A stretch of DNA of 44,681 bases. It comes from Sphingobacteriia bacterium 24-36-13 (lineage in GTDB: Bacteria > Bacteroidota > Bacteroidia > Chitinophagales > Chitinophagaceae). Below are positions 1 to 2,292 of the stretch, one piece after another. The notes under the pieces were generated by a model, which saw nothing but the letters and a program-made list of their open reading frames with translations, did not search any database and was not told the origin of the DNA. The translations under genes and the position numbers were made by a program. How positions within the stretch are numbered: the stretch's first letter is position 1; every line of letters starts with the position of its first letter. The stretch lies in the NCBI GenBank assembly GCA_002281875.1, contig NCHN01000015.1, positions 67,996 through 112,676 of the forward strand. The letters run 5' to 3'.

Positions 1-62
1 TGCCACCAATTTTTCGGGTTTAATAAATACTCTACCAGGTTTCTTTTGAACATGAGGGGAAA

Positions 63-96
63 TTTTGGGCAAATATAATAATAAAGGATACATTTG
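63..96 (+). promoter_or_regulatory. Bacteroidota-type promoter of the norC-norB-rrf2 operon
   Basis: A -33-like TTTG (64-67) lies 21 bases upstream of TACATTTG (89-96), which matches the Bacteroidota -7 consensus TAnnTTTG exactly. Initiation just downstream would leave a leader of about 20 bases before the norC ATG at 125. The first ~60 bases of the window contain no recognisable gene. The assignment rests on consensus match and spacing only. Confidence 0.5.
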
Positions 97-101
97 TCCT
101 T
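84..101. promoter_or_regulatory. Dyad (AAGGA-N8-TCCTT) centred on the -7 box, candidate operator
   Basis: AAGGA (84-88) and TCCTT (97-101) form an inverted repeat whose 8-base spacer is exactly the -7 box TACATTTG. A protein bound here would occlude RNA polymerase. The left part (AAGGATACATTT) resembles the half-site AAGATGCATTT of enterobacterial NsrR. The operon encodes an NsrR-like Rrf2 protein, so autoregulation is a reasonable inference, not shown. Confidence 0.35.
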
Positions 102-124: not shown

Positions 125-526
125 ATGTTTTCAGATAGAAATAAATATGTTTTGGCAATGTTTTTAGTGGGAGGTTTTATAATATATACATTTCAGCTGT
201 ACAACTCATTACCTGTTAAGCAAATAGCTGTTTCACAAGCAGCAGACGATGGAAAAATACTTTGGCAAAAAAAAAACTGTATTAGTTGCCATCAAATTTA
301 TGGGCTGGGTGGGTATTTGGGTCCAGATTTAACCAACGTTTATTCAAAAAAGGGGGCAGTCTATATAAGTGCAATACTTAGGGGTGGAACCAATATCATG
401 CCTAATATGGATTTGACTGATTCGGAAATAGAAGAATTATTGGCATACTTAAAGGATGTAGATCAATCAGGCAAAGCAGATCCTAGAACATTTACAATTA
501 ATACGAATGGAACCATACACCAATAA
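125..526 (+). CDS. norC: NorC-like membrane-anchored cytochrome c
   Basis: A 133-residue monoheme cytochrome c that probably passes electrons to the heme-copper subunit encoded next. One N-terminal membrane anchor (about residues 7-27) is followed by a periplasmic cytochrome domain. The heme motif CISCH (52-56) leads into YGLGGYLGPDLTN (59-71), a signature of NorC, the small subunit of cytochrome c-dependent nitric oxide reductase. A Met in MPNM (92 or 95) is the likely sixth heme ligand. The last 20 bases overlap norB, suggesting translational coupling. The NorC assignment is good; the electron acceptor is an inference from the neighbour, which is itself unusual. Confidence 0.85.
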   Translation: MFSDRNKYVLAMFLVGGFIIYTFQLYNSLPVKQIAVSQAADDGKILWQKKNCISCHQIYGLGGYLGPDLTNVYSKKGAVYISAILRGGTNIMPNMDLTDSEIEELLAYLKDVDQSGKADPRTFTINTNGTIHQ

Positions 527-1883
527 AGGAAAAAGCATTATTGATTTATATATATTGACTGCTTTGTGTTTGTTGATTTTTGGCCTTTTATGGGGTATAA
601 CTGGAAGTTTGCAATATATTTTTCCTGGATTAATGCGGGATCGTTTTTCTTTTCAAAAGGTTAGGCCACTTCATGTTTCTTCAGTGGTTTTTTGGATTAT
701 TTTAGCTGGATTGGGTAGTATGTTAACCTATCTGCAACAACATACTAAACGCGTTATTTATTCCTATCGACTACTCTTATTGCAATATTGCATTTTTCTA
801 TTGACAGTAGTTAGTATCATTATATCTTATTTCTTAGGACGATTTGGCGGAAGAGAGTACTGGGAACATCCCCCTTATTTGGCTTTGCCAATATTCTTTG
901 GTTGGATTTTTTTGTTATTCAATTTCGTAAAATCATTTGGGGGATTTAAAAATCAACCTGTTTATGTTTGGATGTGGTTAACTGGTATTGTGTTTTTTTT
1001 GTTCACTTATCTTGAGTCTTATTTATGGTTGCTACCTTATTTTAGGAATAATATCATCAATGATATGACTGTTCAATGGAAGTCTTATGGTTCAATGGTT
1101 GGCTCTTGGAATATGTTAATATACGGTTCAAGTATTTTTTTAATGGATAAAATCACTAACAATAAAGATATTAGTTATTCAAAAATTGCTTTTGTACTCT
1201 ATTTTACTGGTCTTTTTAATTTAATGTTTAATTGGGGACATCATATTTATACATTGCCAACTGCTCCTTATATAAAACATATCAGCTATACTGTTAGTAT
1301 GACCGAATTGTTTTTAATTGGTCGAATAATTTTCAATTGGAGGAATACCGTTTCAACCGCTAAAAGAAACTTTAATATTTTGTCTTTTCGGTTTTTAGCA
1401 GCTGCTGATTTTTGGGTTTTTTTGACCCTTCTATTGGCTGTTTTAATGTCGATACCAGGAATTAATTTATATACCCATGGCACTCATATAACTGTAGCGC
1501 ATACCATGGGTGCCACTATAGGTATTAATACTTTTTTATTATTGGCAATTGTAATTGATGTGTTTAATGATTCATGCATACGGGTAGAAAAATATAAGGC
1601 AATAATTATTAGGGGCTATTGGATTGTTAATATTTCCTTATTGGTATTTTGGTTGAGTCTAATTGGTGCAGGTTTAGAAAAATCTATGTGGCAAATGAGT
1701 AAATTACAAATAAGTTATTCTATAATGATGCAAAATTTGTCTCCCTATTTTATTGCCTTCTTTATCTCAGGATTTTTCTTGGCAATAGGATTATTCATGG
1801 TGGTTTATCCTTTAATTAGAATTAAATTCGTTTGTAAATTGAAACAAACGAAAAGCAGTTATTATGTTTTCCAAAGCAACTGA
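507..1883 (+). CDS. norB: NorB-like heme-copper oxidoreductase subunit I with non-canonical active site
   Basis: A 458-residue integral membrane protein with about 12 hydrophobic helices, the size of NorB. It is probably the catalytic subunit of a nitric oxide reductase or relative. Visible ligands are H56 (RPLH, low-spin heme), H245-H246 (WGHH, two non-heme metal ligands) and H332 (high-spin heme). Compared without gaps to Pseudomonas aeruginosa NorB (recalled), the third metal ligand H207 is Y194, the catalytic E211 and E215 are V198 and N202, and the second low-spin-heme His H349 is M334. It overlaps norC and the rrf2 gene by 20 bp each. It may belong to one of the alternative NOR families (eNOR, sNOR, gNOR, nNOR) or to an undescribed clade. 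Family is certain; NO reduction is inferred from NorC and the regulator. Confidence 0.8.
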   Translation: MEPYTNKGKSIIDLYILTALCLLIFGLLWGITGSLQYIFPGLMRDRFSFQKVRPLHVSSVVFWIILAGLGSMLTYLQQHTKRVIYSYRLLLLQYCIFLLTVVSIIISYFLGRFGGREYWEHPPYLALPIFFGWIFLLFNFVKSFGGFKNQPVYVWMWLTGIVFFLFTYLESYLWLLPYFRNNIINDMTVQWKSYGSMVGSWNMLIYGSSIFLMDKITNNKDISYSKIAFVLYFTGLFNLMFNWGHHIYTLPTAPYIKHISYTVSMTELFLIGRIIFNWRNTVSTAKRNFNILSFRFLAAADFWVFLTLLLAVLMSIPGINLYTHGTHITVAHTMGATIGINTFLLLAIVIDVFNDSCIRVEKYKAIIIRGYWIVNISLLVFWLSLIGAGLEKSMWQMSKLQISYSIMMQNLSPYFIAFFISGFFLAIGLFMVVYPLIRIKFVCKLKQTKSSYYVFQSN

Positions 1884-2292
1884 GTACGCCTTAAGAGCCA
1901 CTATATTTATTGCAAAAAATAGTTCTTTAAGCAAGAAGTTGGGTATTGAAGAAATCTCAGTTGCAATTAATTCTCCTCAATACTTTACCGCTAAAATTTT
2001 GCAAATTCTAACTAAAAAAGAGCTCATAAAATCAACCCCTGGACCAAATGGCGGTTTTTTTTTACTCAATGAATCAAAACAATTGCCAATTCGTACAATC
2101 ATAGATGCAATGGGTGAGAGTACTACTTTGGATAAATGTGTTTTAGGGTTGAAAGAATGTTCTGAAAAAAGCCCTTGCCCGATGCATGCTCAATATAAAA
2201 ATATAAAGCGCGAACTACAAGAACTTTTCGATTCCAAAACCATAGAAATGTTGGCTGCTGAGGTGAAAAGTGTAAAAAGTTTGAGGTATTAA
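1864..2292 (+). CDS. nsrR: Rrf2-family Fe-S regulator, NsrR-like
   Basis: A 142-residue winged-helix regulator opening with MFSKATEYALRA, the standard Rrf2 N-terminus. C92, C99 and C105 (spacing C-x6-C-x5-C) are placed as in NsrR and IscR, where they bind an Fe-S cluster. In NsrR the cluster reacts with NO and repression of NO-detoxifying genes is lifted. It is the last gene of the norC-norB operon and starts inside norB (20-bp overlap), so it probably reports NO to its own operon. A dyad on the operon's -7 box is the candidate operator. The NsrR role is inferred; another Rrf2 specificity is possible. Confidence 0.75.
   Translation: MFSKATEYALRATIFIAKNSSLSKKLGIEEISVAINSPQYFTAKILQILTKKELIKSTPGPNGGFFLLNESKQLPIRTIIDAMGESTTLDKCVLGLKECSEKSPCPMHAQYKNIKRELQELFDSKTIEMLAAEVKSVKSLRY

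Follow-up and report, generated by a model that had tools for sequence, protein, structure and literature searches.

The locus described here raises the question of what is done by a protein that resembles NorB, a subunit of nitric oxide (NO) reductase (NOR), but lacks several residues of the classical NOR centre. The window examined in this study is the whole stretch of 44,681 nucleotides from contig NCHN01000015.1 of Sphingobacteriia bacterium 24-36-13, whose source genome measures 3.07 Mb. Three overlapping plus-strand genes fill positions 125-2292 of the window and encode a NorC-like cytochrome c, a NorB-like protein (NBL) and an Rrf2-family regulator, with the NBL open reading frame (ORF) overlapping the cytochrome ORF (125-526) and the Rrf2 ORF (1864-2292) by 20 bases each. 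NBL is a separate, widespread family within the known haem-copper oxidoreductase (HCO) superfamily, and its active-site substitutions are fixed across the Bacteroidota relatives read. Judged from sequence, NBL and the NorC-like cytochrome would together form a two-subunit, NO-responsive membrane haem enzyme, a new family beside the classical NORs that likely removes NO, a reading to which we give even weight for and against.

NBL has the fold of HCO subunit I (Pfam COX1, E=1.6e-31), and every model in an NCBIfam scan of the protein fell far below its cut-off. The closest solved structures by sequence are the cNOR NorB chains 4xyd_A and 3o0r_B, profile matches are stronger to cNOR (4e-67) than to cbb3 (1.5e-21), and no B-family chain occurs among the 18 PDB profile matches at E<=0.001. 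Phylogenetically, NBL forms a separate clade (support 100/99) outside cNOR, qNOR and the NO dismutase (NOD) type; a joint clade of NBL and cNOR was rejected (p-AU 0.003), and with it the assignment of NBL to cNOR. In the unrooted tree NBL falls between the C-family oxidases and the NORs, and it is separate from six B-type-like rows that carry our own labels (98); both trees gave long-branch warnings, and the caa3 row dropped out of one of them. A new NOR family had been one option in a first-pass annotation made from the sequence alone, and it is the option that the clade favours. No description of the NBL family was found in the literature searched, which did not cover the Murali 2024 paper on NOR diversity, so its absence from print is not established.

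The relatives considered are the best 80 of 203 loci, some of whose flanks are cut by contig ends. Five of the 80 stand outside the alignments: L012 and L013, two named records (both Bacteroidota metagenome-assembled genomes) whose NBL protein is identical to that of the window; L038, which is interrupted; and L085 and L087, which are partial. One locus labelled Competibacteraceae (L045) is probably mis-binned, as the genes adjoining its NBL match Bacteroidota loci. A phylum-wide search used a query (A1) of 66 NBL rows plus one cNOR row; its mixed matches were not used for any count.

Aligned to Pseudomonas aeruginosa NorB (3o0r_B), NBL retains H60 as H56, H258/H259 as H245/H246, H347 as H332 and E280 as E267, whereas E215 is replaced by N202 and H349 by M334. 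The four histidines had been proposed as kept, and the two replacements as such, before any database comparison, and both proposals hold: M334 and N202 are present in 76/76 aligned members, a set chosen without a motif filter. The accompanying proposal that both catalytic glutamates are replaced is right for E211 and E215 but overlooked the third, since E267 is found in 99/99 members; the FeB-site glutamates lost are thus two of three. Equivalents of NorB E135 and E138 are each kept in 97/99 members, and the H245-H246 pair in 99/99. Of the His sextet that is the HCO signature according to the accessible text of PMC3413370, NBL keeps four of six, the helix-VI His and one haem-b His being gone in the members read. 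Ligand roles were assigned after the structure of A. xylosoxidans qNOR, for which extracts of PMC13087809 give haem b ligands His331/His631, haem b3 ligand His629, FeB ligands His486/537/538 and three glutamates near FeB; only the third of these glutamates has a kept equivalent in NBL. The low-spin haem would appear to have His-Met instead of His-His ligation, as first suggested, M334 being invariant.

The register of helix VI was only partly settled by the first comparison. The pairing of E211 with V198 holds both in the ungapped register and in the hhalign profile-profile alignment (read by eye), which also keeps N202 opposite E215. The pairing of H207 with Y194, found in the ungapped register, depends on the method: MAFFT places H207 opposite G195, and hhalign places it opposite a one-residue gap flanked by Y194 and G195, so the Y194 equivalence is one possible register. 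Position 194 is itself variable (Y in 78, N in 16, L in 4 and G in 1 of 99 members), and Tyr is therefore not a fixed replacement ligand. A displaced His was sought elsewhere in the helix with a register-free scan, and all 99 members lack His, Asp and Glu in the 17-residue QWK segment (0/99), while Q190, W191, K192, G195, V198, G199, W201 and N202 are invariant there. The 99-member set includes 23 rows chosen by a motif filter that contains M334, and L100 and L117 failed this pick and were excluded. A filter-free tblastn reading of 29 loci, which include the window itself and share some organisms with the 76-member set, found Q190, W191, K192, V198 and N202 in 29/29 loci, H245, H246 and E267 in 28/28, and H332 and M334 in 27/27 covering loci; L100 agrees in this reading, and L117 stops short of M334. 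The substitutions hold without exception in relatives as distant as about 40% identity, which points to selection rather than decay.

In 77/80 loci the gene immediately upstream of NBL is NorC-like, and in 63 of these 77 it extends beyond the start of the NBL tblastn match. The three loci without such a call are L085 and L087, which start at a contig end, and L022, in which none was called. The NorC-like proteins retain CxxCH and an invariant Met, and the window's cytochrome shares 32% identity, across 125 aligned columns, with the NorC adjoining the true cNOR of L090, in line with its original description as a genuine NorC-like cytochrome.

The third gene of the operon had been called an NsrR-like regulator. 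The Rrf2 family stands, as the general Rrf2 model alone passes its NCBIfam cut-off, but the NsrR label is less secure, with 28 bits lying under the cut-off and below the 54.5 bits of IscR, itself under its cut-off. The motif Cx6Cx5C is present in 32/32 linked Rrf2 proteins and is consistent with an Fe-S sensor. In 46/76 loci a palindrome, AAGGATAnnTTTGTCCTT, is matched at 11/14 or better at a distance of 15-50 bases before the start of the norC-like gene. With a near-identical template, 49/76 loci reach 11 anywhere in 200 bases compared to about 1.65 in base-shuffled sequence; the template was derived from the same upstream stretches that were scored, a single letter in its right half changed from one scoring to the other, the shuffles preserve nothing beyond single-base content and the loci share ancestry. 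This excess should thus not be read as a probability. Where at least 1.5 kb of downstream sequence is present, a linked Rrf2 gene occurs in 28/44 with the palindrome and in 2/28 without it (p=1.4e-6). Two one-mismatch sites elsewhere in the genome sit inside ORFs, namely C69:5241 (ORF at L010 5026-6372) and C4:20746 (L201 1501-1518, within ORF 1305-2435).

Genome-wide patterns were examined in 298 genomes of the order, with Fisher tests that ignore kinship. NBL was counted in 26 genomes by our own cut (at least 39% identity, among 53 listed at E<=1e-10), cNOR in 21, NOD in 20, nirK over its cut-off in 35 and nosZ over its cut-off in 118. NBL is associated with nosZ (21/26 NBL genomes vs 97/272 others, p=1e-5) and with NOD (8/26 vs 12/272, p=7e-5). 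In the genus of the window (11 genomes), six of the seven nosZ genomes have NBL, cNOR or NOD (one by an interrupted NBL alone), compared to 0/4 genomes without nosZ. A PF00115 search covered 17 of the 18 NBL genomes without NOD (G277 being the other); in four nosZ genomes without nirK over cut-off (G237, G177, G162 and G140), it found only two large oxidase subunits plus NBL. NBL is the sole candidate in G273 as well; this genome was excluded because its NBL frame is interrupted. The NorC-like partner, the Rrf2 regulator, the palindrome and the association with NOD and nosZ together support the initial placement of the operon in NO metabolism.

According to extracts of PMC9976466, the chaperone NorQ is essential for the insertion of FeB into cNOR, qNOR is independent of NorQ, and cNOR that lacks FeB remains stable and hemylated but has no activity. 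NorQ is present in 21/21 cNOR genomes and in 0/26 NBL genomes. It adjoins cNOR in 11/15 cNOR loci (short flanks); of the 80 NBL loci, L090 and L091 alone contain it, close to the true cNOR that each carries. The lack of NorQ in NBL genomes implies that NBL either has no FeB or has its metal loaded otherwise.

In the mechanism that we propose, electrons would enter at haem c of the NorC-like protein and reach first a low-spin haem with H56 and M334 as ligands and next a high-spin haem with H332 as its ligand. The high-spin haem would face a metal-B site made of H245, H246 and probably E267 (2-His-1-Glu), or no metal at all. The most likely job would be NO removal, probably by reduction to N2O that NosZ could use, and no NorQ/NorD machinery for loading FeB would be needed, unlike in cNOR. 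For the linked Rrf2 protein, NO sensing by an Fe-S cluster and action at the palindrome at 84-101 are probable. A more complete version is tentative and in our estimate somewhat less probable than not: NBL would combine a His/Met low-spin haem with a haem plus 2-His-1-Glu site (or haem alone), carry out a non-classical NO conversion after loading free of NorQD, and supply the NO-consuming step in many nosZ-bearing Bacteroidota that are now scored as lacking a NOR.

It is also important to note the observations that weigh against NO removal by NBL. NBL may not be a catalyst at all, because ligands and glutamates of the NOR centre are lost and cNOR without FeB is described as inactive in the accessible part of PMC9976466. 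The association with nirK is weak (6/26 vs 29/272, p=0.10), the absence of cNOR from NBL genomes is not significant (0/26 vs 21/272, p=0.23), and cNOR and NBL occur together in L090 and L091. By our count from the lists, 14/35 nirK genomes have none of cNOR, NOD/qNOR and NBL, so NBL does not account for them. Several NBL genomes carry NOD (8/26) or other candidate NORs, and NBL therefore need not be their NOR. The idea that NBL is the missing NOR of genomes with nirK and nosZ was dropped, as G245 and G271, which have no NOD, carry other candidate NORs; the argument was retained for the four nosZ genomes named above alone. The palindrome is absent from 30/76 loci, and its looser matches in the window's own genome are fewer than those of a reversed control pattern, so the regulator looks local and a wider regulon is unsupported. 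Finally, the NBL frame of Sediminibacterium sp. C3 (L038) is interrupted, perhaps through sequencing error or real loss, whereas that of Sediminibacterium salmoneum (L024) is open.

There are several potential alternatives to an NO-removing enzyme. Decay into a pseudogene, or an artefact of alignment, might be suspected from the interrupted frame in that one relative, but it is refuted by the fixation of the substitutions to about 40% identity and by the agreement of MAFFT, hhalign and the register-free scan (0/99), all without His, and of the filter-free tblastn reading; its probability is negligible. NBL could be a divergent C-family oxygen reductase, to which the unrooted tree position between C-family oxidases and NORs, a weak match to the ccoN profile (49.5 bits vs a cut-off of 583) and a Z to cbb3 that ties with cNOR would lend some weight. 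The best matches are nevertheless to cNOR, one of three CuB histidines and one haem His are missing, and the genome context is NO-related, making this a very improbable reading. More serious, although still unlikely, is the possibility that NBL binds NO as a sensor or scavenger. In this case it would be what is left of the NOR fold, with haem but no FeB; NO trapped at the high-spin haem would be reported or buffered, and the only task of NorC would be to set the redox state of NBL. The loss of H207, E211 and E215, the absence of NorQ from 26/26 NBL genomes and the stable, hemylated, inactive state reported for FeB-less cNOR in extracts of PMC9976466 all agree with such a role. Against this stand the conservation of the cytochrome c gene, the invariance of E267 and both HH histidines, and the nosZ association, which suits turnover better than sensing.

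Two further alternatives assign the operon another chemistry or a subordinate place. His/Met ligation is expected to raise the potential of a haem. NBL might thus act in reverse as an NO oxidase, converting NO to nitrite at the high-spin haem and sending electrons out through a high-potential His/Met haem to NorC, and the loss of the Glu pair linked to proton delivery would suit this direction. Since no nitrite-handling gene is consistently linked among the neighbour clusters listed and the nirK association is weak, we consider it improbable. A role as an accessory to NOD, for example in supplying electrons or channelling NO to the product of the divergent NOD-type gene, is suggested by the promoter held in common in this genome, by NOD in 13/80 loci and by its enrichment in NBL genomes. 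NOD was not found in the fetched flanks of 67/80 loci (some of which end at contig ends) or in 18/26 NBL genomes; as a main role, dependence on NOD was rejected from the flanks, and an accessory function of any kind seems a little more doubtful than NO oxidation.

The NBL operon of the window shares its promoter region with the divergent NOD-type gene, and the features of the window are collected in Table 1. The divergent gene is qNOR-like, with HN instead of HH and Gln instead of the third Glu. Changes of His to Asn and of Glu to Gln mark putative NO dismutases in the accessible text of PMC3413370, His560 to Asn is given for them in extracts of PMC10286720, and an excerpt of PMC13386854 reports them as not isolated. 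NOD is a divergent neighbour of NBL in 13/80 loci, or in 12 when scored by motif. In the order sample, HN and the helix-VI His and Glu pair are present in each of the 20 NOD-type genomes, while two more distant matches (G182 and G168) keep qNOR-type motifs. All 20 also carry nosZ over its cut-off, which is odd if NOD yields N2 rather than N2O.

Table 1. Positions of the features discussed, counted from the first letter of the window
Feature	Position	Strand	Basis or remark
5' end of the longest ORF of the divergent NO-dismutase-type (qNOR-like) gene; start codon unsettled	1..53	-	Remainder upstream of window, match at G000:C1:65694-67928 minus
Operator-like palindrome AAGGATACATTTGTCCTT in the intergenic region of the norC-like gene and the divergent NOD-type gene	84..101	.	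Sole exact pattern match in genome
NorC-like membrane-anchored mono-haem cytochrome c, 133 aa	125..526	+	CxxCH; invariant Met92; Pfam cytochrome c
NBL, 458 aa, NorB-like subunit I of the haem-copper fold, active site altered	507..1883	+	Pfam COX1
H56 (NorB H60), retained, predicted low-spin haem ligand	672..674	+	Alignment
Q190-N202 helix, site of NorB H207/E211/E215, without His or acid	1074..1112	+	Invariant Q190 W191 K192 G195 V198 G199 W201 N202
H245-H246 (NorB H258/H259), retained, predicted metal-B histidines	1239..1244	+	Alignment
E267 (NorB E280), retained; proposed third metal ligand	1305..1307	+	Alignment
H332-T-M334 (NorB H347-G-H349): predicted high-spin haem His retained, low-spin haem His replaced by invariant Met	1500..1508	+	Alignment
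Rrf2-family regulator, 142 aa, three Cys (Cx6Cx5C)	1864..2292	+	Pfam Rrf2

Other genes recur in the neighbourhood of NBL. A 6-pyruvoyl-tetrahydropterin synthase/QueD-like gene often follows NBL directly (34/80 loci, e.g. L037 2594-3028), a family of about 600 aa whose representative has no Pfam match is found in 25/80 loci (L084 12842-14653 and, by reading, L008 5043-6848), and a tyrosine phenol-lyase-like gene lies nearby in 20/80 loci (L040 7601-8983, which passes TIGR02618, and by reading also L008 3663-5036). The genome of the window contains a second Rrf2-headed cluster on G000:C69 (L010 436-7896), which encodes subunit I of a divergent C-family oxidase, a cytochrome c with two haems and proteins that read as ScdA-like and hemerythrin-like from their sequences. 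A third NO-stress-like cluster on G000:C77 (L009 6299-10288) contains genes for a 429-aa membrane protein with a weak COX1 match and, by reading, for what resembles a further Rrf2 regulator. Labels of neighbour clusters that lack a family call, such as truncated globin, are presumptive and were not counted as evidence.

These findings may affect how NO and N2O metabolism is predicted from genomes. In extracts of the survey in PMC12569097, Bacteroidota make up most of the genomes with nosZ but no nir (53%), and among the survey's Bacteroidota that carry denitrification genes, 9% combine nir and nosZ with no recognised NOR. Screens for NOR might miss NBL or discard it for its missing conserved ligands, which would alter predictions of N2O makers and consumers, although NBL does not fill every NOR gap, as the 14/35 nirK genomes without a candidate among those searched indicate. 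The natural, fixed change of His to Met at the low-spin haem and the loss of one FeB ligand offer a test of what a NOR centre requires, and the promoter in common with a NOD-type gene offers a handle on the putative NO dismutases.

Compared to known systems, NBL combines features in a pattern of its own. The CcoN subunit of the C-family cbb3 oxidases is a far weaker match than cNOR and has a CuB His and a haem His that NBL lacks. The alternative families eNOR, sNOR, gNOR and nNOR, to which the first-pass annotation had tentatively turned, and bNOR share with NBL the idea of an alternative NOR active site. These families are grouped with the B-family oxidases in the accessible text of PMC11388526, and a cupredoxin second subunit is given for sNOR, gNOR and eNOR in extracts of PMC8756737; NBL, with its NorC-type partner, lies on the cNOR/qNOR/C-family side and is set apart from these B-family-related enzymes by their published description as far as extracted. 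Some NBL genomes also contain B-type-like oxidase genes with altered helix-VI motifs (GHTIAN and GHSSQQIN; L175 5622-7091 and L179 3142-4881), which are candidate sNOR and eNOR members by our own motif reading. Like NBL, qNOR belongs to the NOR superfamily and is independent of NorQD in the extracts of PMC9976466, but it is a single long chain with an N-terminal cytochrome-like domain, whereas NBL has no N-terminal extension, has a separate NorC-like gene and belongs to another clade. The NOD-type proteins are likewise NOR-related, have lost one FeB His, occur in an NO context and are enriched in NBL genomes; these qNOR-type single chains have H560 changed to Asn and Glu to Gln but keep the helix-VI His and Glu pair, while NBL keeps HH, loses the helix-VI set and a haem-b His, and is 458 aa long. 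The closest likeness is to cNOR (NorBC; 3o0r and 4xyd), with which NBL shares the fold, a NorC-type partner and equivalents of H60, H258, H259, H347, E135, E138 and E280. It differs from cNOR in lacking H207, E211 and E215, in having Met at H349, in the absence of NorQ from its genomes and in forming a separate clade; of the three FeB histidines of cNOR, two are kept in NBL and the third is gone.
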